Shown in pieces: positions 7,795-20,750 of a stretch of 64,000 nucleotides of DNA. The position numbers and the translations under genes were made by a program. The notes beneath the pieces are model-generated. The model saw only the letters and a list, made by a program, of their open reading frames with translations, did not search any database and was not told where the DNA came from. Numbering within the stretch: position 1 is the first letter of the stretch; every line of letters begins with the position of its first letter. The stretch is from positions 62,001 through 126,000 of the forward strand of contig NZ_VCBA01000005.1 of the NCBI RefSeq assembly GCF_007995245.1. Direction: 5' to 3'. This stretch comes from Tateyamaria sp. syn59. GTDB taxonomy: Bacteria; Pseudomonadota; Alphaproteobacteria; Rhodobacterales; Rhodobacteraceae.

Positions 7795-8736
7795 TTAGCG
7801 TTCACCCCTACGGTACGGCACCATGAGCGCGTCCGGCACGCGGGCGCGACGGGCGACAAGTATCAGTGCCCCGATGGACAGAACGTAGGGCGCCATCAGG
7901 AACAGCTGATAGGGCACATCCTCCACCACGGTTTGAAGACGCAACTGATAGGCGTCGAAAAAGGCAAATAAAAGCGCGCCCAGCAGCGCCTTGCCAGGAC
8001 GCCACGAGGCAAAGACCACGAGCGCGATACAGATCCACCCCCTGCCCTGCACCATCTCGGGAAAGAAGCTGTTGAAGGCCGCGGTGGTCAGGAACGTACC
8101 GCCCACGGCCATCAGCGCGGATCCCGCCACGACGGACCAGATGCGGATACGGATCGGGTTGAGCCCTTGCGCCTCGACCGCGTGGGGATTTTCGCCGGTC
8201 ATGCGGATCGCCAGGCCCAGCGGCGTGCGCGCCAGCGTATAGGCCATGACGACGACGGCGAGCAGCGCCAGATAGGTCGGGAGGGTCTGTGAAAACAGGA
8301 TCGGACCCAGAACCGGCACCTGTGAAAGGATCGGAATGCTGAGCGGGGCAAAAGGTTCGATGGTTGGCGGCAGATCTCCTACCACCACGATCAGGCGGTA
8401 GAGGTAGTAGGACAGCGCCGACGCAAAAAGCGTGATGCCCAGCCCCGACACATGCTGCGACAGGCCAAGCGGCACAGTGAGCATGGCGTGCAAGAGGCCC
8501 ATCACGCTGCCGCTGAGTGCGGCAACCAATAGACCAGCCCACAGATCACCCCCCAGATAGACCGTCAGCCAGCCCGTCATGGCACCCATTGTCATGATCC
8601 CCTCGATCCCGAGGTTCAGAACACCCGACCGCTCGCACAGCAGCGCGCCAAGCACGCCGAAGATGAGCGGCGTGGCGATCCGCAAGACCGCCGCCCAGAG
8701 GCTGGTGTTCAGGAGCAGGTCCAGGGCTTCGGTCAT
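7795..8736 (-). CDS. ABC transporter permease, nucleoside type (second subunit)
   Basis: A 313-residue polytopic permease of the branched-chain amino acid/ribose/nucleoside superfamily. The start region has ATPLIFGVLGALLCERSG and NLGIEGIMTMGAM, typical of the partner permease of BMP-dependent nucleoside importers (NupQ/YufQ type). At least eight hydrophobic segments are visible. The ATG at 8736 overlaps the preceding permease stop (ATGA), so an earlier in-frame ATG at 8790 is unlikely. It is the last gene of the transporter operon; the 273 bases after it up to xthA hold no gene I can support. Confidence 0.88.
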   Translation of the reverse strand: MTEALDLLLNTSLWAAVLRIATPLIFGVLGALLCERSGVLNLGIEGIMTMGAMTGWLTVYLGGDLWAGLLVAALSGSVMGLLHAMLTVPLGLSQHVSGLGITLFASALSYYLYRLIVVVGDLPPTIEPFAPLSIPILSQVPVLGPILFSQTLPTYLALLAVVVMAYTLARTPLGLAIRMTGENPHAVEAQGLNPIRIRIWSVVAGSALMAVGGTFLTTAAFNSFFPEMVQGRGWICIALVVFASWRPGKALLGALLFAFFDAYQLRLQTVVEDVPYQLFLMAPYVLSIGALILVARRARVPDALMVPYRRGER

Positions 8737-9776
8737 CGGCGTACCCGGTATGTCGTGACCATAAGGGCCACCAGCATGGTCAGAAGGCACATCGCAACGA
8801 TGACATCCGCAATAAAGCTGGGCACACCCGTCGCGCGGCTCATCGCGTCGGCACCGACAAAGACCGTGGCGACAAAGATCGCGGCGGCCACCACGCCCGC
8901 AGGATGCAGCGCCGCCAGCATGGCCACGACGATGCCTGCGTAACCAAAGCCGGGTGACATTGTGGTGGTGACGGCGGCGGTGACGCCCAGAACCTCGACC
9001 GCGCCTGCGAGCCCGGCAAGCGCACCGGACAGCAGCGCCACGCCCATCAAGGTACGCGGCAGTGAAATGCCGGCGAAGGTTGCGGCCTGTGCGTTCAGAC
9101 CGGCAGCCCGCGTTTCCGCGCCGAAGACGGTGCGCGCGAGGATCACCCAGACAATCGTGGCAGCCGCCAGTGCAAACAAGAACCCGATGTGAAGCCGCGT
9201 GCGGGGCACAAGGTCCGGCAGTCGGAAATCGCCGTCGACCGGGACCGAGGACGGCCAGCCGAAGGCCATCGGATCGCGGAGCGGGCCCTCGACCATCATA
9301 CCGACGAAGAGGATCACGATGAAGTTCAACAAAAGCGTCGTTACGACCTCATCCACGCTGAAGCGCAAGCGGAAATAGGCGGGCACGGCCAGCAACAGCG
9401 CTCCAGCGGCCATTCCTGCCGCCATCAGGATGGGGATGCCAATGGGCCCCGGCACGGCGAGCGCGTGCCCGATCCAGGCTGTGACCAGTGCGCCGATGAA
9501 AAACTGCCCCTCGCCGCCAATGTTCCACAGACGCGCGCGGAAGGCGACGGCGGCGGCGAGGCCCGTCAGGATCAGAGGCGTAGCGCGGGTCAGCATCTCG
9601 GTCACAGACCGGCGCGAGCCGAGCGCGCCTGTCAGCATCTCGACATAGGCGCTGAGCGGGTTGACGCCCGCCGCGGCGATCAGCCCCCCGGCGAGACACA
9701 GCGCAACCGCCACGGCGGCGAGCGGCGCGGTGAGGGCAAGGTGCAGCGGCACATGGGCGCGCCGTTCAAGCCGCAT
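8733..9776 (-). CDS. ABC transporter permease, nucleoside type (first subunit)
   Basis: A 347-residue inner-membrane permease. Motifs such as RARLWNIGGEGQFFIGAL and VDEVVTTLLLNFI identify the NupP/YufP-type permease that works with BMP-family binding proteins. Ten or so hydrophobic stretches are present. It overlaps the ATP-binding gene upstream by 11 bases and the second permease downstream by 4, so all three are translated as one unit. Confidence 0.88.
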   Translation of the reverse strand: MRLERRAHVPLHLALTAPLAAVAVALCLAGGLIAAAGVNPLSAYVEMLTGALGSRRSVTEMLTRATPLILTGLAAAVAFRARLWNIGGEGQFFIGALVTAWIGHALAVPGPIGIPILMAAGMAAGALLLAVPAYFRLRFSVDEVVTTLLLNFIVILFVGMMVEGPLRDPMAFGWPSSVPVDGDFRLPDLVPRTRLHIGFLFALAAATIVWVILARTVFGAETRAAGLNAQAATFAGISLPRTLMGVALLSGALAGLAGAVEVLGVTAAVTTTMSPGFGYAGIVVAMLAALHPAGVVAAAIFVATVFVGADAMSRATGVPSFIADVIVAMCLLTMLVALMVTTYRVRR

Positions 9777-11286
9777 CGGCGTCCTCCTCCCAGACGCCAG
9801 CCATCATCAGGCCGAGCTTGCGCGCATCAGCGTCTTCGGCGGCCACGGGGTCTGACAACCGCCCCTTTACGATGGCCTGGATGCGGTCGGACAGGGCGAC
9901 CGCCTCTTCCAGTTCTTCGGAAATCAGCAGGATGGCCGCCCCCTTGGCGCGGGCATCGAGCAGTTCGGCATGGACGGCGGCAATGGCGCCTTCGTCGAGG
10001 CCGCGTGTCGGTTGATTGGCGAGCACGAATTTTGGCCCGGTCGACAGGCAGCGGCCGAGGATCAGCTTTTGCATGTTGCCCCCGGACAGCAGGCGAGTGC
10101 GCGTGTCGGGTGTGGCCCCGCGGATGTCGAAGCGTTCGATCAGGTCAGCGGTGTAGGATTTGCACGTGGCTTTGCGCACAAAGCCGTGGCTGGAGAAGGC
10201 CGGGGTGCGCAGCCGTTCCAGCACGGCGTTTTCCCAGACGGCCAGTTCTCCAACCGCCCCTTCGGCGTGCCGATCCTCGGGCACGCGGGCTGCGCCTGCG
10301 CGGATCATACCGCGCGGGCCCAGCGGGGTGAGGTCCTGCCCGGCGAGCGTCAGGCTGCCGGATGTCGGCGTGACCAGTCCTGAGAGCAGCGCGCCGAGTG
10401 CCGCTTGTCCGTTGCCCGACACGCCGACGATGCCCAGCACCTCGCCCTCGCGCACGGTGAAGGATACTTCGTCGAGATGGGTTTCACCCTTGTCTTCGAC
10501 CCGTACCTTGTTTGCGATCACGACGGGGCTGCCGATCTGGTGGTCCTGACGGGTGGGCCGCGCAACCTTGCGCCCGACCATCAGTTCGGCGAGTTCGTCT
10601 GGGGTTGTGCGAGATGTTTCGCGTTCCGCCACCAATTGCCCTGCCCGCAGGACCGCCACCCGGTCGGAGGCGGCCATGACCTCGTGCAGCTTGTGGCTGA
10701 TGAAGATCAGCGACAGTCCTTCGCGCGTCATCTCACGCAGGGTTTCGAACAGACGCTGCGCTTCGGGTCGGGCGAGGACGGCGGTGGGCTCGTCGAGGAT
10801 CAGGATGCGGGCATCGCGGTAGAGCGCCTTGAGGATTTCGACCCGCTGGCGTTCGCCAACAGAAAGCTGGTTGACCCGCGCGTCGGGCGATACGGGCAAG
10901 CCGAAGCGTTCCGCGATCTGCAGCAGTTTTTGCCGGGCAGCGGCGCGGGCCGAGCGCAGGGAGAGCAGGCTTTCGGAGCCGAGCATGACGTTGTCGAGCA
11001 CCGTGAGGTTGCCTGCCAGTGTGAAATGCTGGTGGACCATTCCGACGCCAGCGTCGATGGCTGCGCGCGGTTGGCCTGGGGGCAGGTCCTGTCCAAAGAC
11101 GCGCACGGTGCCCTGATCGGCGGCGTAGTGGCCGAAGAGGATGTTCATCAGCGTCGTCTTGCCCGCGCCGTTTTCACCCAGAAGGGCGAGGATTTCGCCC
11201 TGGGCGAGGGACAGGGTGACGTTGTCATTGGCGGTGAGAGCGCCGAAGCGCTTGGTGATGCCATTGAGTTCGAGTGCGGGGGTCAT
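9766..11286 (-). CDS. ABC transporter ATP-binding protein, duplicated domain
   Basis: A 506-residue double ATPase of the ribose/nucleoside import class. Domain 1 has an intact Walker A (LLGENGAGKTTLMN) and a signature and Walker B in LSVGERQRVEILKAL and ILILDEPTAVL. Domain 2 has a modified P loop (GVSGNGQAALGALLSG, no GKS/T) and LLSGGNMQKLILGRCL. That degenerate second site is usual for this class. It energises uptake through the two permeases encoded downstream. Its start overlaps the amidase stop by four bases. Confidence 0.9.
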   Translation of the reverse strand: MTPALELNGITKRFGALTANDNVTLSLAQGEILALLGENGAGKTTLMNILFGHYAADQGTVRVFGQDLPPGQPRAAIDAGVGMVHQHFTLAGNLTVLDNVMLGSESLLSLRSARAAARQKLLQIAERFGLPVSPDARVNQLSVGERQRVEILKALYRDARILILDEPTAVLARPEAQRLFETLREMTREGLSLIFISHKLHEVMAASDRVAVLRAGQLVAERETSRTTPDELAELMVGRKVARPTRQDHQIGSPVVIANKVRVEDKGETHLDEVSFTVREGEVLGIVGVSGNGQAALGALLSGLVTPTSGSLTLAGQDLTPLGPRGMIRAGAARVPEDRHAEGAVGELAVWENAVLERLRTPAFSSHGFVRKATCKSYTADLIERFDIRGATPDTRTRLLSGGNMQKLILGRCLSTGPKFVLANQPTRGLDEGAIAAVHAELLDARAKGAAILLISEELEEAVALSDRIQAIVKGRLSDPVAAEDADARKLGLMMAGVWEEDADAA

Positions 11287-12641
11287 GTGGGCAGGCCCGC
11301 AATGGGATGGGGGTAGGCGAGCTTTGGGGCGCGTTGTTCGATCTGTGCTGCGAGATGGCAGAGCGTTCGGTCGCTTCCGCGTGGACCCAAGAGTTGCACG
11401 CCGACGGGGAGGTCGCCTTGCATCCCGAAGGGCAGGGCCAGTGCGGGCAGGCCTGCGACGTTGGCAAGGGCGGCGTTCGGGGCGAACGCCTCCATCTTGG
11501 CAAAGTGGGCGTCGGTGTCGGTGTGGCCCAGGTCAAAGGCGCCGACTGTTGGGGGCGTCGTGGACAGGACCGGGCAGAGCACGGCGTCAACGGTGGCGAA
11601 GAGAGTGGCAGCGTCGTTTGTTATCCGCGCCATGTTGCGGGTCACGCCGAAGAGGTCGGTGGCGGACATGGCGCGGCCTTCGGCTGCAACAGCGGCGATG
11701 AGGGGTGGGACTTCGTCGTCAGGTATTTTGAGTGCCGTGAGCCAGTCGGCGAGGGACACCGACAAGACGGTTCGTGCGATGGCGTGGGCTTGCGCGCCCA
11801 TGTCGTCGGGGGCGGGGATCTCCTCAACCTCGTATCCGGCGTCGGTCAGGGCGGATGCGGCAGAGCGTGCGGCCGCGATCTGTGCGGCGTCGCAGCGGGC
11901 GGGAAGGGCCAGGGCGATGCGGTTGCGGGCCTTGTGCGCGAGGGTTGCCACAGGGCTTTGGACCGCGTCAAAGATCGCGACCACGTCTCGGACGGAGCGC
12001 GCGAGGACCAGTTCAGATACGATGCCCATCAGATGATTGTTGTATTCGGGGCCCGCGACGACCGCGCCCCGCGAAGGCTTCAGACCGACCAAGCCGCAAC
12101 AGGCGGCTGGAACGCGGATCGACCCTGCGGCGTCGGTTGCATGTGCGAGGGCCACGATCCCGGCGGCGACGGCCGCTGCCGCGCCGCCAGAGGATCCGCC
12201 CGGTGACAGCGACGTGTTCCACGGGTTGCGTGCGGGCGGCAACCCTTCAGGCGCGCTATCGAGAGCCAAACCGAATGGCGGCACGGCAGTCAGGCCAAAC
12301 GGCAGAAGGCCAGCGCCGCGAAACGCGGAGAACAGATTGCTGTCAGCCGCCGGTCGCACAGGGCGGGCCCGAAGGGCTGCAGCGCCTGCCGCGATGGGCC
12401 ATCCCACGGCCTCTGACCCCAAGTCTTTGCCTAAAAATGGCACCCCGTGGAACGGGCCACGACGCGCTGTAAGCCCGGCGTCGACCTCAACTGCGCCCGC
12501 ACGCCCGCCTTCTGCGTCCAGAAAAACCACAGCACCCAGGTCCGCGTGCGTTTCACATGCGGCCAGGCTCGCCTCCATCACGTCGCGGGCATTGGTGCGC
12601 CCGTCGGCGATGGCGGCCGCAAGTGCTGTGGCATCAGGCAT
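11283..12641 (-). CDS. Amidase signature-family hydrolase in nucleoside-type operon
   Basis: A 452-residue amidase-signature enzyme with the triad K72 (FLGKDLGSE), S150 (PGGSSGGAA) and S174 (DAAGSIRVP), correctly spaced by 24 residues. It lies between the binding-protein gene (13 bases upstream) and the ATPase gene (4-base overlap), so it belongs to the uptake operon and probably acts on the imported compound or a product of the linked deaminase. Related enzymes include allophanate and carboxybiuret hydrolases, but I see nothing that fixes the substrate. Not a close match to the amidase at 1786-3114. Confidence 0.87.
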   Translation of the reverse strand: MPDATALAAAIADGRTNARDVMEASLAACETHADLGAVVFLDAEGGRAGAVEVDAGLTARRGPFHGVPFLGKDLGSEAVGWPIAAGAAALRARPVRPAADSNLFSAFRGAGLLPFGLTAVPPFGLALDSAPEGLPPARNPWNTSLSPGGSSGGAAAAVAAGIVALAHATDAAGSIRVPAACCGLVGLKPSRGAVVAGPEYNNHLMGIVSELVLARSVRDVVAIFDAVQSPVATLAHKARNRIALALPARCDAAQIAAARSAASALTDAGYEVEEIPAPDDMGAQAHAIARTVLSVSLADWLTALKIPDDEVPPLIAAVAAEGRAMSATDLFGVTRNMARITNDAATLFATVDAVLCPVLSTTPPTVGAFDLGHTDTDAHFAKMEAFAPNAALANVAGLPALALPFGMQGDLPVGVQLLGPRGSDRTLCHLAAQIEQRAPKLAYPHPIAGLPT

Positions 12642-12654
12642 GGATCACCCTTTG

Positions 12655-13638
12655 TCAGGCGGGTTCATCATTGTCGATGGGCACGTCCCACTCGCCTGCA
12701 GTGATGGCGGCTTGCTTGGCCTCCATCGCCGGGATGGCATCGGCGGGCACCTCATCGGCGACATAGATCAACTCATTCCCGCCGTAGGCCATGAACGAAT
12801 ACTCGGTGTAATCACGTCCGACTGGATTGCCTGCCTGAATATCGGCCACGATGGCTTCGATGGTCGGGCCATAGTTCCAAATCGCGTTGGCAAAGACGGT
12901 GCCCGGATAACGCGGCGTATAGTCGATGAGCGAGCCAATGGCCTTGATCCCGCGTTCCTGCGCGGCATCGGCGGTGCCGATCCGTTCCCCAAAAAGGATG
13001 TCGGCCCCGGCGTCGATCTGCGCCATGGCCGCCTCTTTCGCGCGGGCGGGGTCGAACCAGGCACCGATAAAGCCGTTGAGGAAGGTCGCGTCGGGGTTCA
13101 CTTCGGTCACGCCCATGCGGAAGGCGTTGATGAGCAGGTTGACCTCGGGGATCGGATAGCCGCCGACAGAGCCAAAGACGTTACTTTCAGACATCTTGCC
13201 CGCCAGCATCCCGGCGAGATAAGCGGCCTCGTGGTTGCGGGTGCCGAAGACGCCGAAATTGTCGCCCTCCGGCCCGCCGGAAGAGCCCATCAGGAAGGCC
13301 GTGTCGGGAAAGTCTGCAGCCACTTCGCGCGCCTCCCGCTCCACCGCATAGGCTTCGCCCCAGACCAGTTGCGCACGGCCTTCGGCATATTCCGCTATGG
13401 CGCGGGGATAGTCAGTGGGCGCGACCCCTTCGGAGAACTCGTATTCGATCTGGCCGGCGGCGGCCGCCTCTTGCAAGGCCAGGTGAATCCGGCTGTTCCA
13501 TGCGTTTTCGACGGGCGACATGTGGACGCCCGCGACGCGGGTGACGCCCTGCGCATGCGTACGGCGGATATAAGACGGCAGCGCCAGTGTGGCAGCGGCC
13601 CCGACAAGAAGCTGGCGACGGCTTGGTGTGAGTTTCAT
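12655..13638 (-). CDS. BMP-family ABC substrate-binding protein
   Basis: A 327-residue periplasmic binding protein of the BmpA/Med/PnrA family, whose known members bind purine nucleosides or nucleobases. The N terminus MKLTPSRRQLLVGAAATLAL has a twin-arginine-like pair before a hydrophobic stretch, followed by a likely THAQ cleavage site near residue 30. VFGTRNHEAAYLAGMLAGKM and VFGSVGGYPIPEVN are typical of the family. The ATG at 13638 fits the signal peptide; the frame continues upstream without character. It lies 31 bases after the deaminase-like gene and feeds the downstream ABC transporter. Confidence 0.9.
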   Translation of the reverse strand: MKLTPSRRQLLVGAAATLALPSYIRRTHAQGVTRVAGVHMSPVENAWNSRIHLALQEAAAAGQIEYEFSEGVAPTDYPRAIAEYAEGRAQLVWGEAYAVEREAREVAADFPDTAFLMGSSGGPEGDNFGVFGTRNHEAAYLAGMLAGKMSESNVFGSVGGYPIPEVNLLINAFRMGVTEVNPDATFLNGFIGAWFDPARAKEAAMAQIDAGADILFGERIGTADAAQERGIKAIGSLIDYTPRYPGTVFANAIWNYGPTIEAIVADIQAGNPVGRDYTEYSFMAYGGNELIYVADEVPADAIPAMEAKQAAITAGEWDVPIDNDEPA

Positions 13639-13669
13639 TGGAAAAATCCTCTCTCGTGCTGGCAGAAAT

Positions 13670-14995
13670 TCAAATGTCTTTTTCGTCCATCGCCGGGGCG
13701 TAGTCGGCGGGGTCAATCGCGGTCGGGCGACCGGGCAGGTCAAGGGTAGCAACGCGCGGCGCGGTGCGCGCCAGAACCTTGCCGTGTTTGATCACTGCCA
13801 GCCGGGTTGCTTTTAGCCTGACGGCTTCGATTGGGTCACTCGCTTGCAGCACTACCATGTTGGCGGGCCCGCCCTCGCGCAGCGTAGGATCCGGTAGGCC
13901 CATTGCACGGGCGCCGTTTTGCGTGACCGAGGTAAAGGCCCATTCCATAGCCTCGCGTGACGTCATTGGCACGGCGTGCACGCCCATATGCGCAACCTCG
14001 AGCATGTCGGCAGACCCGAGCGAGTACCACGGGTCCATGGTGCAATCCTGCCCGAAGGCCACGTTGACGCCCGCCGCGCGCAATTCCGGCACACGGGTCA
14101 GACCACGGCGCCGCGGATAGGTGTCGGACCGGCCCTGCAGCGTGATGTTGATCAGCGGATTCGGGATAACGTTCATGCCGCTTTCGGCAATCAGCGGGAT
14201 CAGCTTGCTGGCATAGTAATTGTCGTAGGAGTGCATCGCGGTGACGTGGCTGGCCGACACGCGCCCTCCGAGACCGAGGCGTGTTGTTTCGGCCGCAAGC
14301 GTTTCGACATGGCGCGACATTGGGTCATCGCTTTCGTCGCAATGCAGATCGAGCATCAGGTCACGATCAGCCGCAATCTCGCACAGGCGAGTGACGGACC
14401 GCGCGCCATCCGCCCTCGTACGTTCAAAATGCGGGATGCCACCTACAACATCCACGCCCATGTCCAGCGCCCGCAGCAGGTTCTGCTCCGCCGTAGCCGA
14501 GCGGTAGAGCCCGTCCTGTGGGAAGGCAACCAGCTGCAAGTCGATATAGGGTGCAACACGCTTGCGCACTTCGATCAGCGCCTCGACGGCCGTAAGTTTG
14601 TCGTCGCAAACATCCACATGCGTACGGATCGACAGCAACCCCTGCGCCACCGCCAGATCGCAGTAGCGCAAGGCGCGTTCCATGACCGCCTCGACCGTAA
14701 GCATCGGCTTCAACTCACCCCAGAGCGCGATGCCTTCGAGCAAGGTGCCCGACAAGTTCAGCCGGGGAAGGCCGAGGCTGAGCGTCGCATCCATATGGAA
14801 ATGCGGATCGGTAAAGGGGGGCGCCACCAGCCGCCCGTCCGCATCAATGATGTCCTGCGCTTCGGCGTCGACCTGAGGGGCGATCGTCGCGATCTTGTCC
14901 CCTTTGATGCCGATATCGTGCTGCCCGCTGCGATCCGGCAAGCGGGCATTTTTTATGATTAAGTCCAGAATCCCCCGACTCCTTCTTTTGATCAT
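13670..14995 (-). CDS. Amidohydrolase, cytosine deaminase (CodA)-like
   Basis: A 441-residue metal-dependent deaminase. Metal and catalytic residues are H65 and H67 (DPHFHMD), H218 and E221 (LHCDES), H250 (SASH) and D317 (FGQDCTMDPWY). From memory the E. coli cytosine deaminase residues are H61, H63, H214, E217, H246 and D313, a uniform offset of four; the substrate glutamine (E. coli Q156) matches Q160 in AFPQDG. The residue after the catalytic Asp is Cys318 where E. coli has Asp314, a specificity position, so cytosine may not be the true substrate. It is the first gene of the operon with the BMP protein, amidase and ABC transporter, and a hairpin terminator separates it from the operon upstream. 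Confidence 0.83.
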   Translation of the reverse strand: MIKRRSRGILDLIIKNARLPDRSGQHDIGIKGDKIATIAPQVDAEAQDIIDADGRLVAPPFTDPHFHMDATLSLGLPRLNLSGTLLEGIALWGELKPMLTVEAVMERALRYCDLAVAQGLLSIRTHVDVCDDKLTAVEALIEVRKRVAPYIDLQLVAFPQDGLYRSATAEQNLLRALDMGVDVVGGIPHFERTRADGARSVTRLCEIAADRDLMLDLHCDESDDPMSRHVETLAAETTRLGLGGRVSASHVTAMHSYDNYYASKLIPLIAESGMNVIPNPLINITLQGRSDTYPRRRGLTRVPELRAAGVNVAFGQDCTMDPWYSLGSADMLEVAHMGVHAVPMTSREAMEWAFTSVTQNGARAMGLPDPTLREGGPANMVVLQASDPIEAVRLKATRLAVIKHGKVLARTAPRVATLDLPGRPTAIDPADYAPAMDEKDI

Positions 14996-15139: not shown

Positions 15140-15550
15140 CTACTGAGCTTTTTCCGCCAGAAACTGCCTCAGATCCAATTCCTCGCGCCGTAGTGCAGAC
15201 ACATAGACAAAGGCCATGTTGATCCGTTCGGAGATCATATCGCCGGGAAACGGGAGGTAGCTGAGCTCTCGAGAGCCGAAGGAAGGGGACGCCGTGCCGA
15301 CCTGCCATTCTGACGTGACGGAGACGTCCACGAGTTTCAGCGCCGGGCCACCCTCGGTGCAGGGGATTTCGAGGGGGATGTTTGCGATATTGAGGTAGGC
15401 GGCCTTGTCCTTGGCGTCACGGAAGCCGTCGATGAATTGGGTGCAAAGCACCTGCAGGTCAGCCGCCTCATCCTCGGGCTTGAGGTGCGAATGCAGGTGG
15501 TCTGCGGCGTAGTTGTGGCCGATATGGCCGTTGACGATGTCATGTGGCAT
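15140..15550 (-). CDS. Uncharacterised His-rich 136-aa protein, guanidine operon
   Basis: I do not recognise this family. The 136-residue product has no signal peptide or membrane segment. Its first 22 residues hold six histidines (positions 3, 9, 12, 18, 20, 22), including HLHSH; the rest is a soluble mixed alpha/beta-looking chain ending LRREELDLRQFLAEKAQ, with a single Cys pair far apart. The start at 15550 lies four bases after the ureohydrolase stop, so it is the last gene of the riboswitch-led operon and is followed by a terminator. A metal-delivery or accessory role for the ureohydrolase is my inference from the His-rich start and position only. An in-frame extension to 15604 would overlap the ureohydrolase and looks unconserved. 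Confidence 0.8.
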   Translation of the reverse strand: MPHDIVNGHIGHNYAADHLHSHLKPEDEAADLQVLCTQFIDGFRDAKDKAAYLNIANIPLEIPCTEGGPALKLVDVSVTSEWQVGTASPSFGSRELSYLPFPGDMISERINMAFVYVSALRREELDLRQFLAEKAQ

Positions 15551-15554
15551 GGCG

Positions 15555-16820
15555 TCAACCTTTCTTGTGCGGTGTGGACCAGCGGGCGCCGTCGCGGTCC
15601 GCATCGTAGTCGCCCATGGGCAGGCTCACCGGCTTGTCGATGTGCTTGCGATGGTCGCCCATCTTGCCTGAAGACACGAGCGAGCCCAGCACATCCACGA
15701 TCACGCGGGTGCCCATCAGGGCGGTGATTTCGGACTGGTCATAGGGCGGCGACACCTCGACCAGTTCCATGCCGCAGATACCTTCGGCCGCGACTTTGGA
15801 GGCGAGCGCCAGCGCCTCGCGCGGCAGGAAGCCGCCCGGTTCGGGCCAGCCGGTGCCAGGGACAAAGCCGCAATCAATGCTGTCGATATCAAAGGACATA
15901 TACACCATGTCCACCCCGTCCCAGGCCATCTCGAGTGCCATCTCGGCCGTCTTGTCGACGCCCATCTTTTCCATGTCGCCCATGGTGATGATGTTGGTTT
16001 CACGCTCGCGCGCGACCTTCACCGCCTCGCGCGGGACCTGCCAGCCGCCGATGCCAACCTGCACGAGGTTCTTGGCGGGCACGTTCGGAAGGTTGGTGGA
16101 GTGGAACCACGGGGTCGTGTGCATCCGTTCGTCCAGATCCTTTTCCTGAATGTCGGCGTGCCGGTCGAAGTGGACGATGCCGATTTTCTTGGACGTACAT
16201 TCGGCGATGCCGCGCACGCAAGGAAAGCCGATGGAGTGGTCGCCGCCGATGATGATGGGCAGTGATCCGGACGAGAACACGTGGCTGACGGCGCGGCTGA
16301 TCTGGTCGAACGTCTTTTCGATGTTGCCAGGGATGGTAAAGATGTCGCCCGCATCGCAGAGCGACATCTGTTCGCGCAGGTCGATCCCCATTTCGTAGTT
16401 GTAGGGCGTGTAGAGCGCGCTGATCTTGCGGACGCCTTGCGGCCCGAACCGCGTGCCGGGGCGGTAGGTTGTCCCGCCATCAAAGGGCGCGCCGAGGACG
16501 CAGGCGTCGTAGTTGCCGACCTCGGTCACATCCTCGGTGTAGGGCGCTTTGAGAAAGGTGTTGATGCCGGCGTAGTGGGGCAATTCCCCACGGGCGAAGG
16601 TGGGGATGGACCGGTCTTCTATACTGTCGGCGGCGGTCAAACCCATGCGCAGCGCCCATGCCTTTTCCTTGTCCCACTCGCCTTCGGGGATGTCAGCCTC
16701 GGCCTGCATCGACTTCCAGCCTTGCAGCTTGGTCAGGTCGGGGTGGTGCGCGCGGCGGTCAGGGATCTGGCGATCATCTGGCCGGTGCAAGCGGCTACGA
16801 TCCTGCGGGGTCCAGAACAT
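15555..16820 (-). CDS. Ureohydrolase (arginase/agmatinase fold), probable guanidine hydrolase
   Basis: A 421-residue ureohydrolase, longer than typical agmatinases (about 300-320). Binuclear metal ligands are visible: H195 (GGDHS), D219, H221 and D223 (HFDRHADIQ), D311 and D313 (SFDIDSID). The segment DLDERMHTTPWFHSTN and the long N-terminal extension resemble, from memory, the nickel-dependent guanidine hydrolase GdmH (Synechocystis Sll1077) rather than agmatinase. The upstream guanidine-I riboswitch and ABC importer fit guanidine as substrate, giving urea and ammonia. The start at 16820 has a perfect AAGGAGG eight bases before it and overlaps the ATPase gene by 26 bases. Agmatinase or guanidinoalkanoate hydrolase are the alternatives. 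Confidence 0.85.
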   Translation of the reverse strand: MFWTPQDRSRLHRPDDRQIPDRRAHHPDLTKLQGWKSMQAEADIPEGEWDKEKAWALRMGLTAADSIEDRSIPTFARGELPHYAGINTFLKAPYTEDVTEVGNYDACVLGAPFDGGTTYRPGTRFGPQGVRKISALYTPYNYEMGIDLREQMSLCDAGDIFTIPGNIEKTFDQISRAVSHVFSSGSLPIIIGGDHSIGFPCVRGIAECTSKKIGIVHFDRHADIQEKDLDERMHTTPWFHSTNLPNVPAKNLVQVGIGGWQVPREAVKVARERETNIITMGDMEKMGVDKTAEMALEMAWDGVDMVYMSFDIDSIDCGFVPGTGWPEPGGFLPREALALASKVAAEGICGMELVEVSPPYDQSEITALMGTRVIVDVLGSLVSSGKMGDHRKHIDKPVSLPMGDYDADRDGARWSTPHKKG

Positions 16821-17574
16821 AGGTGTCCTCCTTGAGTATCTGATAGGGTATCCCGCCATCGCGGGCGTCAAAGTCGTAAGTGATGGTGGCGCCATAGGCG
16901 TCGGGGAACTGTGGGTCCCACCGCACCTTGTCGAAGGCGAGGACCCGGTCGCCCAGCTTGAACGCCTCGCTCAGGTCGTGGGTGACCATGAAGACGGTCA
17001 TGTTTGTCTCGGCCCGCAGGTCCTGCAGAAAGTCGTGCATGCGTTCGCGCGTGCCGGGATCGAGCGCACCGAAAGGTTCATCCAAGAGCAGGATGCGGGG
17101 TTTAGCGGCAAGCGCCTGCGCGATGGCCAGCCGCTGCTGCATGCCGCCTGACAGGGTTGCGGGATACTGATCAGCAACGTGCGCCAGCCCTATACGTTCA
17201 AGCGCGGCGTTGGCGCGGGCGCGGGCAGATTGGCGCCGGGCGCGGGGCAGAATACCGAGCAGATTTGCGCCCAACCCCTCTGCGGCCACCAGATTGTCGC
17301 GCACGGTCATGTGCGGAAAGGTCGAATAGCGTTGAAAGACGATACCCCTGCTGCGGTTCGGCTCGCCCTGCAGAGGGATGCCGTCCACCCGGATTTCGCC
17401 GCGCGTCGGACGCTCCTGATCCAGAAGCAGGCGCAGGAAGGTGGATTTGCCACAGCCCGATGCACCGACGATGGAGATGAACGCGCCCTCGGCAACCTCA
17501 AGCGAGACGTTGTCGAGGATCGGGCGCTTCCCATATTTCTGAGACACGTGTTCGACGGTGACAAAGCCCATCAT
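16795..17574 (-). CDS. ABC transporter ATP-binding protein, NitT/TauT type (guanidine)
   Basis: A 259-residue single-domain importer ATPase. Walker A is VGASGCGKSTFLRLL, the signature is TLSGGMQQRLAIAQAL, Walker B is ILLLDEPFGALDP and the switch His is in FMVTHDLSEA. It is of the nitrate/taurine/sulfonate class. The start at 17574 overlaps the permease stop by four bases (ATGA), and the 3' end overlaps the ureohydrolase start by 26 bases, so the complex and the hydrolase are expressed together. Confidence 0.9.
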   Translation of the reverse strand: MMGFVTVEHVSQKYGKRPILDNVSLEVAEGAFISIVGASGCGKSTFLRLLLDQERPTRGEIRVDGIPLQGEPNRSRGIVFQRYSTFPHMTVRDNLVAAEGLGANLLGILPRARRQSARARANAALERIGLAHVADQYPATLSGGMQQRLAIAQALAAKPRILLLDEPFGALDPGTRERMHDFLQDLRAETNMTVFMVTHDLSEAFKLGDRVLAFDKVRWDPQFPDAYGATITYDFDARDGGIPYQILKEDTYVLDPAGS

Positions 17575-18380
17575 GCGGCCTCTGCCCAGGGAAAGAGGCG
17601 GCGAGACAGTCGCGCGAGGCACCAGTCGAGGACAAAGGCGATTAGGGTGATCCATGCGACGTAGGTCAGGATCACATCCATGGCGAGGTATCGGCGCACG
17701 AGGAAGATGCGATAGCCCAGCCCGTCCTCGCTTGCGATGGCTTCGGCGGCGATCAGGAACAGCCAGGCCGGACCAAGGGACAGCCGCACTGCCTGAATGA
17801 GGCGCGGCAGGATTTGCGGTAACGCAACCCGCAACGCGATGGCCAGAGACGACGCCCCCAGCGTCTGCGCCTTGATGATCTGTTCTGAGGGCAACTCGGC
17901 TGTGCGTGCGGACAGGTCGCGGATCAGGAAAGGCGTGATGCCGATGGTGATCAGGGCAACCTTGGACAGCTCGCCCAACCCAAACACAATGAACAGGATG
18001 GGCAGGATCGCCAGGGGCGGCACCATCGAGATCACGGCAACAAAACTGTTCAACCCGGCATGCGCCACGGGCAAAAGCCCGATCAACAACCCGAAGGCCA
18101 GCCCCAAGCTGGCCGCCAGGCCGACACCAATGGCCAGACGGCGCAGGCTGGAGGCGGTGTCTTTCCAAAACAGGATCTCGCCCGAGCGCCGGTCGGGTTC
18201 AGAGACAAGCCGTGCTGCCGTGTCGACCAATTGCGATGGCGGCGGCAATAGCTTGTCCGCCGGGTTCGCGGCGCGGCGCGCATCCGATCCCATGGCGTAG
18301 ATGATCATCAGCAGCACAAAAGGCAGAACCGTCAGGAACAGCGCAAAGGGCCGTCCGGGGGTTTTATTGATCCAGCGCAT
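17571..18380 (-). CDS. ABC transporter permease, NitT/TauT type (guanidine)
   Basis: A 269-residue inner-membrane permease with about six hydrophobic segments. The coupling region lies around SSLAIALRVALPQILPRLIQ, close to the EAA-loop pattern of the SsuC/TauC class. It begins 42 bases after the binding-protein stop and overlaps the ATPase gene. In the riboswitch-controlled context it most likely moves guanidine across the inner membrane. Confidence 0.88.
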   Translation of the reverse strand: MRWINKTPGRPFALFLTVLPFVLLMIIYAMGSDARRAANPADKLLPPPSQLVDTAARLVSEPDRRSGEILFWKDTASSLRRLAIGVGLAASLGLAFGLLIGLLPVAHAGLNSFVAVISMVPPLAILPILFIVFGLGELSKVALITIGITPFLIRDLSARTAELPSEQIIKAQTLGASSLAIALRVALPQILPRLIQAVRLSLGPAWLFLIAAEAIASEDGLGYRIFLVRRYLAMDVILTYVAWITLIAFVLDWCLARLSRRLFPWAEAA

Positions 18381-18422
18381 CGGTCGCGTTCCGCACGATC
18401 AAGCCGCGCGGAAAGCCTGTGC

Positions 18423-19472
18423 TCAGAGCGCGCCGTCGGCGGCCATCTGCATGTAAGTCGTGTCATAGCGCATCATGACATTCCCCGCGTCGCCGGTGGT
18501 TGTGCCATCTGGGTATTCCACACCCACGAAATCTGCGCTTGGCGCGCCTTCGCCCAAGATGCCCTTGTCGAAGAGGAATTCGGCCACGTTGACCATTGTT
18601 GCTTTCAAAGCGTCAGCTTCGGTGAAGGCGACCGCATCGGCAGGGTCATAAAACATCTCGGTCGAGGCAAGCTGCGCTTTGTAGCCCGCAAGGTCGGTGC
18701 CCGATGCCTCTGCCATCGCGGTCAGCGCGCCTTCGTTCCCAGCAGCCATCAAGGCCATCAACTCGTACCATGCACCTGTCAGTGCCTTGCCGAAATTCGG
18801 GTTGGCGGCCAGCGTTTCGGTGTTCACCCACATGATGTCGATGATCTCTCCGGGGATGTCCGAGCTGTCGTAGACTTTCGTGGCGTCGGGCTGTTCGAGG
18901 ATGGTCGACACGAGTGGATTCCAGGTCACGACCGCCTCGACATCCGGGATCGAATAGGCGGCAATCATGTCGGCGTCGGATGTGTTGATGACCGAGGCGA
19001 GATCCCGTTCCGCCAAGCCAACGCTGTCGAGCCCCCGCGCCAGCAGGTAATGCGAGACGGACAGCTCAACGAGGTTGACTGGTTTGCCCGCAAGATCGGC
19101 CAGACCGCCCTCGCCCTTGAGGATGATCGCGTCGTTGCCGTTGGAATAGTCGCCGACGATCAGTGCAGTCGTGTCCACGCCGCCCCCGGACGAGATGGAC
19201 AGCGTGTCCATGTTGGTGGCTGTCACACCGTCAAATTCGCCCGCCGTGTATTGAATGATGGATTCGACGTAATCGTTAATTTGCACAATCTCGACGTCGA
19301 TCTCGTACTTGTCAGCCCATTTGTCCATGATCCCGCTGTCTTCGAGATAGCCCCACGGCATCCAGCCTACGTAGATCGACCACGCCACCTTGAATTCGGT
19401 TTTTTCCTGCGCGGCGGCGCCGAATGTCGTGAGTGTCAGTGCCAGAGCGGCCAAAACAGTTGAACGGATCAT
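18423..19472 (-). CDS. ABC substrate-binding protein, guanidine/'urea carboxylase'-associated type
   Basis: A 349-residue periplasmic binding protein with a clear signal peptide (hydrophobic residues 4-20, cleavage near AAA-Q at 21-22). The mature start VAWSIYVGWMPWGYLEDSG, then FDGVTATNMDTLSISSGGGV and IVGDYSNGNDAIIL, match from memory the binding proteins found beside urea (now guanidine) carboxylase genes and under guanidine-I riboswitches. The ATG at 19472 follows GGAGGATG, an ideal ribosome site. It is the first gene after the riboswitch; 65 bases separate aptamer and start codon. Confidence 0.9.
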   Translation of the reverse strand: MIRSTVLAALALTLTTFGAAAQEKTEFKVAWSIYVGWMPWGYLEDSGIMDKWADKYEIDVEIVQINDYVESIIQYTAGEFDGVTATNMDTLSISSGGGVDTTALIVGDYSNGNDAIILKGEGGLADLAGKPVNLVELSVSHYLLARGLDSVGLAERDLASVINTSDADMIAAYSIPDVEAVVTWNPLVSTILEQPDATKVYDSSDIPGEIIDIMWVNTETLAANPNFGKALTGAWYELMALMAAGNEGALTAMAEASGTDLAGYKAQLASTEMFYDPADAVAFTEADALKATMVNVAEFLFDKGILGEGAPSADFVGVEYPDGTTTGDAGNVMMRYDTTYMQMAADGAL

Positions 19473-19537
19473 ATCATCCTCCAGGTCCAATCAAAACATA
19501 CGACCGAAGGTTATAGTGAGAGACGCGGCCGAACCGT

Positions 19538-19653
19538 CGCAGTGCTCTCCCGGGATTTTGCCCCGCCGTGTACCGTCCGGAATTTGCCGGACCGGCGGCA
19601 CCTCTCGGACCAGCCCTGTCGTGGATGACAAGCGGAACCCTAGGTACCCTGCG
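19538..19653 (-). ncRNA. Guanidine-I (ykkC) riboswitch
   Basis: Read on the minus strand the aptamer has all hallmark blocks in order: CTAGGGTTCCGC (19643-19632), GGTCCGAGAGGTG (from 19611), an ACACGGCGGGGCAAAAT segment, then CCCGGGAGAG (19554-19545). The ends CGCAG (19653-19649) and CTGCG (19542-19538) pair to close the P1 stem. This is the consensus of the guanidine-sensing ykkC class I aptamer. It stands directly upstream of the importer-ureohydrolase operon. A CTCTC at 19522-19518 could pair with the GAGAG of the aptamer end and may be part of the expression switch; that part is inference. Confidence 0.93.
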
Positions 19654-19812
19654 CGTGTGACGGTACGTGGTGGATTAGGTGCGCACCAAAATCGGATTGA
19701 CCGGATCGGGTTTTGTCGGGAAATACGCACAGTTTTGCAGCGGTTTTTGGGCGATATGCGCGACTATTGGGCAGTCAGCAGTTGACCAAGTGCCTTTGAG
19801 GCTAGAACGCGA

Positions 19813-19953: not shown

Positions 19954-20640
19954 TCAGGCCATGAGACGATATCCGCCGCTTTCGGTCACAAGAAGGCGCG
20001 CATTTGACGGATCCGGTTCGATTTTCTGGCGCAAACGATAGATATGCGTTTCCAGCGTGTGGGTCGTGACACCTGCGTTGTAGCCCCAGACCTCGTGCAA
20101 CAGCACGTCGCGGGCCACCACGCCTTCGGTCGAGCGGTAGAGGAATTTGAGGATGTTCGTCTCTTTCTCGGTCAGGCGAATCTTGCGGTCATCCTCGGTC
20201 ACCAGCATCTTGACGCTCGGCTTGAAGGTGTAGGGCCCGAGGGTGAAAACGGCGTCCTCGGACTGTTCATGCTGGCGCAATTGGGCGCGAATGCGGGCCA
20301 GCAGAACCGGGAACTTGAACGGCTTGGACACGTAGTCGTTGGCACCAGCATCGAGGCCGAGGATCGTGTCGGCGTCCGTATCGTGGCCTGTGAGCATCAC
20401 GATGGGCGACTTGACCCCCTGCTTGCGCATCACGCGGCACAGTTCACGCCCGTCGGTATCCGGCAGGCCCACGTCGAGGATCACGAGGTCGTAGATCGCC
20501 TCCTTGGCCTTGACCAGAGCGTCCTGGCCGTTGCCCGCCTCGAACACGTCGAAATCTTCGGTCATGACAAGCTGTTCGCTCAACGCTTCGCGCAGGTCCT
20601 CATCATCATCGACCAGAAGGATTTTCTTCAATTGTGCCAT
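19954..20640 (-). CDS. OmpR-family response regulator
   Basis: A 228-residue two-component regulator. The receiver domain has the acidic pocket DDDED at residues 10-14, a phosphoacceptor Asp in LVILDVGLPDTDG and the conserved Lys in DYVSKPFKF. The C-terminal winged helix is recognisable by RLTEKETNILKFL and VTTHTLETHIYRLRQKIE, ending ESGGYRLMA. No histidine kinase is adjacent, so it is an orphan in this window. Its size and C-terminal sequence resemble CenR-type essential regulators of alphaproteobacteria, but that name is tentative. The start at 20640 begins MAQLKKILLVDDD. Divergent from ribA. Confidence 0.9.
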   Translation of the reverse strand: MAQLKKILLVDDDEDLREALSEQLVMTEDFDVFEAGNGQDALVKAKEAIYDLVILDVGLPDTDGRELCRVMRKQGVKSPIVMLTGHDTDADTILGLDAGANDYVSKPFKFPVLLARIRAQLRQHEQSEDAVFTLGPYTFKPSVKMLVTEDDRKIRLTEKETNILKFLYRSTEGVVARDVLLHEVWGYNAGVTTHTLETHIYRLRQKIEPDPSNARLLVTESGGYRLMA

Positions 20641-20703
20641 GGGTCTCGTCTCCCTTGATGTTGGAGGATAGATGCGGTCGCGCAGGGGTTTCAGCAAGTT
20701 GTG

Positions 20704-20750
20704 GGCCAAATGTTTCACGCCCATGTGTCAGCGAGCGGCCAAATGTTTCA
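20704..20750. repeat. Direct repeat GGCCAAATGTTTCA x2 between cenR-like gene and ribA
   Basis: The 14-mer GGCCAAATGTTTCA occurs at 20704-20717 and 20737-20750, start to start 33 bases (about three helical turns). It lies in the divergent intergenic region 20641-20802 and may be a regulator site. Confidence 0.4.

Follow-up and report, generated by a model that had tools for sequence, protein, structure and literature searches.

The window analysed here, a stretch of 64,000 nucleotides (nt) from Tateyamaria sp. syn59 (contig NZ_VCBA01000005.1, positions 62,001 to 126,000), carries on its minus strand a guanidine-I riboswitch aptamer and, behind it, five genes encoding the substrate-binding protein, permease and ATPase of an ATP-binding cassette (ABC) transporter, a GdmH-type ureohydrolase (gdmH) and a small protein of 136 residues (Table 1). 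It is this last protein, and the part it may play in supplying GdmH with nickel, that concerns us most. The ATPase and permease genes overlap by 4 nt and the ureohydrolase and ATPase genes by 26 nt, the small-protein gene follows that of the ureohydrolase after a gap of 4 nt, and the five are presumably co-transcribed. A first-pass annotation, made from the sequence alone, had listed five genes of one direction joined by overlaps or short gaps, and this arrangement is borne out within a few bases; the five genes also match in the same order in 39 of 42 related loci and 38 of the 42 have the riboswitch, more than chance would give.

Table 1. Positions of the features discussed, in window coordinates unless a related locus is named.
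Feature	Position	Strand	Basis
Guanidine-I riboswitch aptamer	19545..19654	-	RF00442 cmscan, model 1-107 of 107, 78 bits, E 3.5e-12
Possible switching hairpin reusing the aptamer 3' GGGAG	19515..19551	-	45-nt piece, minimum free energy -13.5 kcal/mol; no U-run after it
ABC substrate-binding protein, putative guanidine binder	18423..19472	-	TIGR03427; signal-peptide-like start (by eye)
ABC permease	17571..18380	-	PF00528, 65.9 bits
ABC ATPase	16795..17574	-	PF00005, 125 bits
Probable GdmH-type guanidinase (guanidine hydrolase)	15555..16820	-	PF00491, 256.7 bits; best PDB matches 7esr/7oi1 and 9fek
Small partner protein, 136 residues, histidine-rich N-terminal tail, candidate nickel deliverer	15140..15550	-	Pairs with gdmH
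Terminator-like hairpin past the operon	stem 15060-15043, then CGTTTTCTTC	-	Pattern scan
HupE/UreJ-type gene, related locus L098 (Sinorhizobium fredii NGR234)	8713-9297		PF04955
HupE/UreJ-type gene, related locus L079 (genome of the same class)	11286-11894		PF04955

A riboswitch, an importer and a ureohydrolase

The 42 related loci were obtained by scanning genome contigs with the small protein, which is therefore present in them by selection; their titles name Rhodobacteraceae or genera assigned there, which we take to belong to that group. The exceptions to the shared order are L006, which is cut at a contig edge, and L009 and L027, which have no binding-protein match there, and the 39 include L022, in which gdmH is broken, and L032, with a binding protein only 43% identical. 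In 41 of the 42 loci gdmH lies upstream of the small gene on the same strand (L006 starts at the contig edge), and by the chosen starts 28 of these 41 pairs share an 11-nt overlap. The five genes are found again on plasmids of Limimaricola variabilis and Rhodobacteraceae bacterium SC52, where the records label the fourth "agmatinase family protein" and the fifth "hypothetical protein". In L022 (6025-6951), gdmH appears broken, the adjoining small-protein gene is open and no riboswitch was found.

The aptamer matches the RF00442 covariance model over its full length and above the gathering score of 63 bits (Table 1), and its placement at 19538-19653 in the first-pass annotation was essentially right. 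It is the only RF00442 match in the 4.57 Mb genome, and a single one of 14 control genomes (B. subtilis) has a match. Rfam scans found the element in 38 of the 42 loci and in all seven further loci; among the four without it, L002 and L006 are truncated where their contigs end, and L022 and L032 gave no match. Counted by genome, RF00442 is over the cut-off in 25 of the 30 that have both gdmH and the small protein, and in 26 of all 34 searched. Judged by its riboswitch class, the aptamer would serve as a guanidine-binding ON switch of the operon. A second guanidine-I match was seen in genome G065 (C11:33894-34002, minus strand, 70.4 bits), the operon of which sits elsewhere.

The nearest solved relatives of the ureohydrolase are the guanidinases of Synechocystis (7esr/7oi1, E = 2.9e-165) and Nitrospira inopinata (9fek, E = 1.9e-164), and the next PDB entry follows at 5.1e-51, more than 100 orders of magnitude away in E-value. 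Identity amounts to 234 of 351 aligned residues (67%) with the Synechocystis enzyme and 228 of 356 (64%) with that of N. inopinata. For the latter, the available portion of the published study names Thr105, His222, Trp313 and Glu344 as possibly important for guanidine catalysis (PMC11410670). With a single constant chain-numbering offset of 2, these four residues are T118, H234, W325 and E355 of the window enzyme, and they are invariant in 15 aligned sequences, the window included. In addition, H195, D219, H221, D223, D311 and D313, which we take to be the six metal ligands, are identical to those of 7esr. The enzyme is thus, as judged from its sequence, probably a GdmH-type guanidinase and a nickel enzyme. 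Assignment as an agmatinase was considered and is opposed by the guanidinases as top PDB matches, by the kept substrate residues and by agmatinase models that stay below their cut-offs.

The binding protein scores 516.4 bits against TIGR03427, "putative urea ABC transporter substrate-binding protein", for which the curated cut-off is 333.9. Such "urea" ABC systems near urea-carboxylase-like genes are now regarded as guanidine systems. For the permease the nearest NCBIfam model is TauC, at 116 bits against a required 342, and the ATPase reaches the cut-off of none of the 25 NCBIfam models shown; guanidine as the importer's substrate is accordingly suggested by genomic context. The direction of transport is presumed to be inward. 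(The database searches used a binding-protein query of 18423-19475, one codon too long, and some small-protein searches used 15140-15574.) Taken together, the operon very probably performs guanidine uptake and hydrolysis, and the earlier proposal of guanidine-riboswitch control, ABC import and guanidine hydrolysis finds support in the sequence.

That proposal had also called the module self-contained, for which there is no support: guanidine hydrolysis should yield urea, and the genes for urease and its accessory proteins are on a different contig of the same genome (G000:C4). Urease alpha is over the cut-off in 30 of the 32 genomes with gdmH, and the two without it, G567 and G579, also lack the small protein. 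We note that the GdmH relative of G579 (L128, 9028-10428) is divergent, at 55% identity, and that this genome has no guanidine-I match, no small protein and no urease alpha; an open reading frame ahead of the gene resembles a binding protein by eye, and the enzyme may act on another substrate.

A small protein paired with gdmH

The small protein, which the first-pass annotation listed as the fifth gene and then passed over, is in fact the unusual part of the operon. The window protein has no Pfam, NCBIfam or PDB match, and comparison of 34 members with families returned only four stray ones, each matched by one member (E 0.019-0.093). We did not use as evidence the NCBIfam matches of single members (E 0.019 and 0.056) to efflux proteins for nickel/cobalt, which probably reflect histidine runs, nor the matches of a profile to solved structures, with E no better than 0.049, which start at residue 2-5 of the chain and may be due to His tags.

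Two parts can be distinguished. The N-terminal tail of the window protein holds 6 His in 38 residues; ahead of the core, the first 43 sequences contain 6 to 17 His and others up to 25, and at least six are present in 33 of 37 aligned members. L031 has an additional His-rich tail at its C-terminus. The core, approximately residues 25-136, is predicted to consist of helices followed by strands (mean predicted local distance difference test score, pLDDT, 75.6). Similar layouts, with a variable His-rich tail on a conserved core, occur in nickel-enzyme contexts in UreE, HypB, SlyD and others. The small protein resembles these in layout and may work alike; it has no sequence match to UreE, HypA or HypB families, nor to SlyD.

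Pairing with gdmH was followed in three genome samples. In the family sample (120 genomes, own included), gdmH and the small protein occur in an identical set of 15; the two genes lie within 0.6 kb in 14 of these and at two contig ends in G098. In the phylum sample (398 genomes), seven carry gdmH, own genome included, and all six others have the small protein. In the class sample (385 genomes), 13 genomes have gdmH, 13 have the small protein and 11 have both; A3, used in this search, contains the window's own and the G395 sequences, which therefore match by construction. Fisher tests give p values of 2e-19 and 1e-17, which ignore phylogeny and, as the samples overlap and share descent, are not true probabilities. 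Distances of the small protein and GdmH correlate over 41 sequences (r 0.68), a figure not used here since shared ancestry gives the same.

The small gene stays beside gdmH in L077, which has no importer within the 20 kb examined, in L009 and L027, and in L032. These four loci rule out a tie of the small protein to the importer or the riboswitch in place of the enzyme; an incidental small open reading frame is likewise ruled out, by conservation and by the pairing itself. We consider it likely, on this evidence, that the small protein acts on GdmH.

Nickel supply of the probable guanidinase

What the small protein may do to GdmH is best approached through the nickel helpers that accompany related enzymes and are not found here. 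The five genes of the window operon include no hypA/hypB-like gene. A HypA profile had no match in 69 related loci, in which HypB was not sought; two controls were found by this profile, yet both are among the five sequences from which it was built, which makes for a weak control. In the own genome no protein exceeds the HypA cut-off of 28.9, with two weak matches of 16.7 and 13.7 bits that cover 34 positions only. As to HypB, the three strong G3E GTPases there are UreG, CobW and a ZigA-like protein, besides three weak cobW matches (17-24 bits); UreG reaches 70.6 bits against the hypB model (cut-off 121), and the ZigA-like protein 579 bits (cut-off 600). Among the 21 genomes searched, out of 32 known here to have gdmH, HypA is not over the cut-off in 15. 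A HupE/UreJ-type gene lies directly past the small gene in 2 of the 69 loci (Table 1).

Published systems are compared here from the available portions of the respective reports. Guanidinases of Synechocystis and of picocyanobacteria come with HypA/HypB-like proteins, and the Synechocystis PCC 6803 sll1077-sll1082 operon and the marine picocyanobacterial cluster resemble the window in uniting a guanidine-I (ykkC) riboswitch, an ABC importer and a guanidinase (PMC12186494, PMC10119275, PMC8390497). In contrast to these clusters, no hypA/hypB was found here, gdmH is followed by a small, mostly His-rich protein, and the importer genes precede gdmH. The chaperones of the HypA/HypB type that the Synechocystis enzyme uses were found neither in the operon nor in the genome, a further respect in which a self-contained module is not supported. 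The N. inopinata locus (9FEK), similarly to the window, has a guanidine-I riboswitch and a GdmH-type enzyme without nickel chaperones nearby; it differs in an APC permease where the window has an ABC importer, and in that the available text reports no small partner. Its nickel-loading mechanism is called "unclear" (PMC11410670). Metformin and dimethylguanidine hydrolases come with HypA/HypB, and metformin hydrolase with an adjoining HupE (PMC11399263). The operons of these nickel-ureohydrolases (MefH, DmgH; MetCaCb) thus share with the window an enzyme of the same kind and have adjoining nickel accessory genes, HupE included, but use HypA/HypB (MetAB) and two ureohydrolase subunits, whereas the window has one ureohydrolase and the small protein. 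The metal chaperones MetAB were required for growth, a metAB knockout being unable to use metformin for it (PMC11271267). The union of riboswitch, importer and guanidinase is therefore already known from cyanobacteria, and its form without HypA/HypB and with a small partner is a variant; no description of this variant was found in the literature searched, which covered part of the sources and few of the subscription papers.

The explanation that we favour, with slightly better than even confidence as a whole, is a guanidine operon in which the small protein is the nickel deliverer of GdmH. Guanidine would bind the aptamer and turn the operon on, the ABC importer would bring guanidine in, and GdmH, as a nickel-type ureohydrolase, would convert it to ammonium and urea, with urease, encoded elsewhere, completing nitrogen release from urea. 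The small protein, made from the last gene of the operon, would bind nickel with its His-rich tail and, via its core, dock on freshly made GdmH and load the metal, thereby doing the job of GhaA/GhaB, the HypA/HypB-like proteins of Synechocystis. Since some members carry few tail histidines, the core may do the essential work (docking or stabilising), and the tail may be a nickel collector that has been reduced in some lineages. That the action on GdmH consists in delivering nickel is the weakest and most interesting step, and we hold the chances for and against it to be equal.

Several observations weigh against this explanation, the weak control of the HypA profile among them. Six of the 21 gdmH genomes searched do have HypA over the cut-off, and the own genome encodes a His-tailed UreE and UreG, which are possible alternative loaders. 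In the protein itself, the window's count of six tail His is tied with L018 as the fewest of 43, tails are low in His in 4 of 37 members (L131, 4; L134, 5; L135, 1; L136, 3), no His or Cys of the core is invariant among aligned members, and a fold search with the small-protein model gave no usable match, a result from which we do not conclude that a known fold is absent. His tails, moreover, can bind zinc, cobalt or copper too. Nor is the pairing complete. Two genomes of the class sample have gdmH without the small protein: G567, with a 3.3 kb contig in a 68% complete genome, and the above-mentioned G579. Two others hold remnants of the small protein without gdmH, in G620 (L125) an orphan C-terminal part that is cut N-terminally, and in G838 (L126) a riboswitch, a binding-protein piece and the core of a small protein that ends in a His tail, the middle being missing or misassembled. 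Among 11 plasmid records with gdmH, of which seven were inspected, four actinobacterial loci show no small-protein match within about 7 kb and no HypA nearby. As far as the available texts tell, MetAB had no significant influence in cell extracts (PMC11271267), and the N. inopinata guanidinase is active without chaperones (PMC11410670). The actinobacterial loci, the two class genomes without the partner and this activity without chaperones indicate that such a loader is not needed everywhere.

Some of these same points favour other roles. The small protein could be a structural or regulatory partner that assembles, stabilises or inhibits GdmH, has no metal task and bears a His tail of secondary importance, which would fit the close pairing with gdmH, the conservation that sits in a core free of invariant His and Cys, and tails almost without His, such as that of L135; we regard this as unlikely but worth keeping in sight, since it leaves unaddressed the six or more tail His of most members, the C-terminal His-rich tails of L031 and of the remnant L126, and the HupE/UreJ gene alongside in two loci. 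Less probable still is a protein that merely stores or buffers nickel or another metal, with UreE/UreG or free metal loading GdmH. The His-tailed UreE and the UreG of the own genome, the prevalence of urease alpha among gdmH genomes and the chaperone-independent N. inopinata enzyme agree with such a role; however, a general nickel store would be expected also in urease genomes without gdmH, whereas none of the 120 family genomes, which were scored for gdmH and the small protein and not for urease, has the small protein without gdmH.

We give very little credence to a third possibility, that the operon is meant for a different guanidino compound, such as agmatine or methylguanidine. The ligand of the binding protein is putative and public records name an agmatinase family protein, but the guanidine-I aptamer, the two guanidinases as nearest solved relatives with a wide gap to the next entry, the conserved substrate-linked residues and the low scores of the agmatinase models all speak for guanidine.

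Returning to nickel delivery by the small protein, we would put at slightly under an even chance that it founds a new family of dedicated guanidinase nickel metallochaperones: a one-protein stand-in for HypA/HypB, with no GTPase, induced by guanidine along with the enzyme it serves, and distributed over Rhodobacteraceae, Sinorhizobium fredii and several other families of the class. The nickel supply of a guanidinase without HypA/HypB becomes directly testable through this conserved, mostly His-rich adjoining partner, which accompanies the enzyme in several families of the class, for example in the plant symbiont S. fredii NGR234. If true, the explanation would strengthen the case for guanidine as a nitrogen source of marine-type alphaproteobacteria and might aid the production of guanidinase in fully active form.

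Leader, downstream end and neighbouring elements

How the aptamer would act on the genes behind it was considered from predicted folds. In 45-nt pieces of 21 leaders (the window and 20 others), three or more bases of the aptamer's 3' GGGAG are predicted to pair with downstream sequence, and in the window this gives the possible switching hairpin of Table 1. The 182-nt window leader folds no better than shuffles (z 0.19). In the 80 nt past the aptamer, a simple test found a terminator-like hairpin followed by a T-rich stretch in 1 of 46 leaders, the window not being that one, and on this count a classical terminator platform was rejected; given the same result, control through Rho or at translation is just as probable as intrinsic termination.

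Past the operon, the terminator with which the first-pass annotation closed it has a counterpart in the hairpin at 15060-15043, and a terminator at this site is plausible. The scan found nine terminator-like sites in 5.1 kb against 4.3 (standard deviation 2.0) in shuffles, and this site is not significant alone.

Further downstream, the window at 9766-14995 (minus strand) resembles a second nitrogen-scavenging set, with a cytosine-deaminase-like amidohydrolase, a BMP-type binding protein, an amidase and an ABC ATPase, the last identified by eye. On the other side of the operon, the interval that separates an OmpR-type response-regulator gene (19954-20724) from the guanidine-I leader holds a match to the small RNA SorX (RF02784; 19816-19899, minus strand; 65 bits against a gathering score of 46.6), a stress small RNA of Rhodobacter that derives from a 3' untranslated region.

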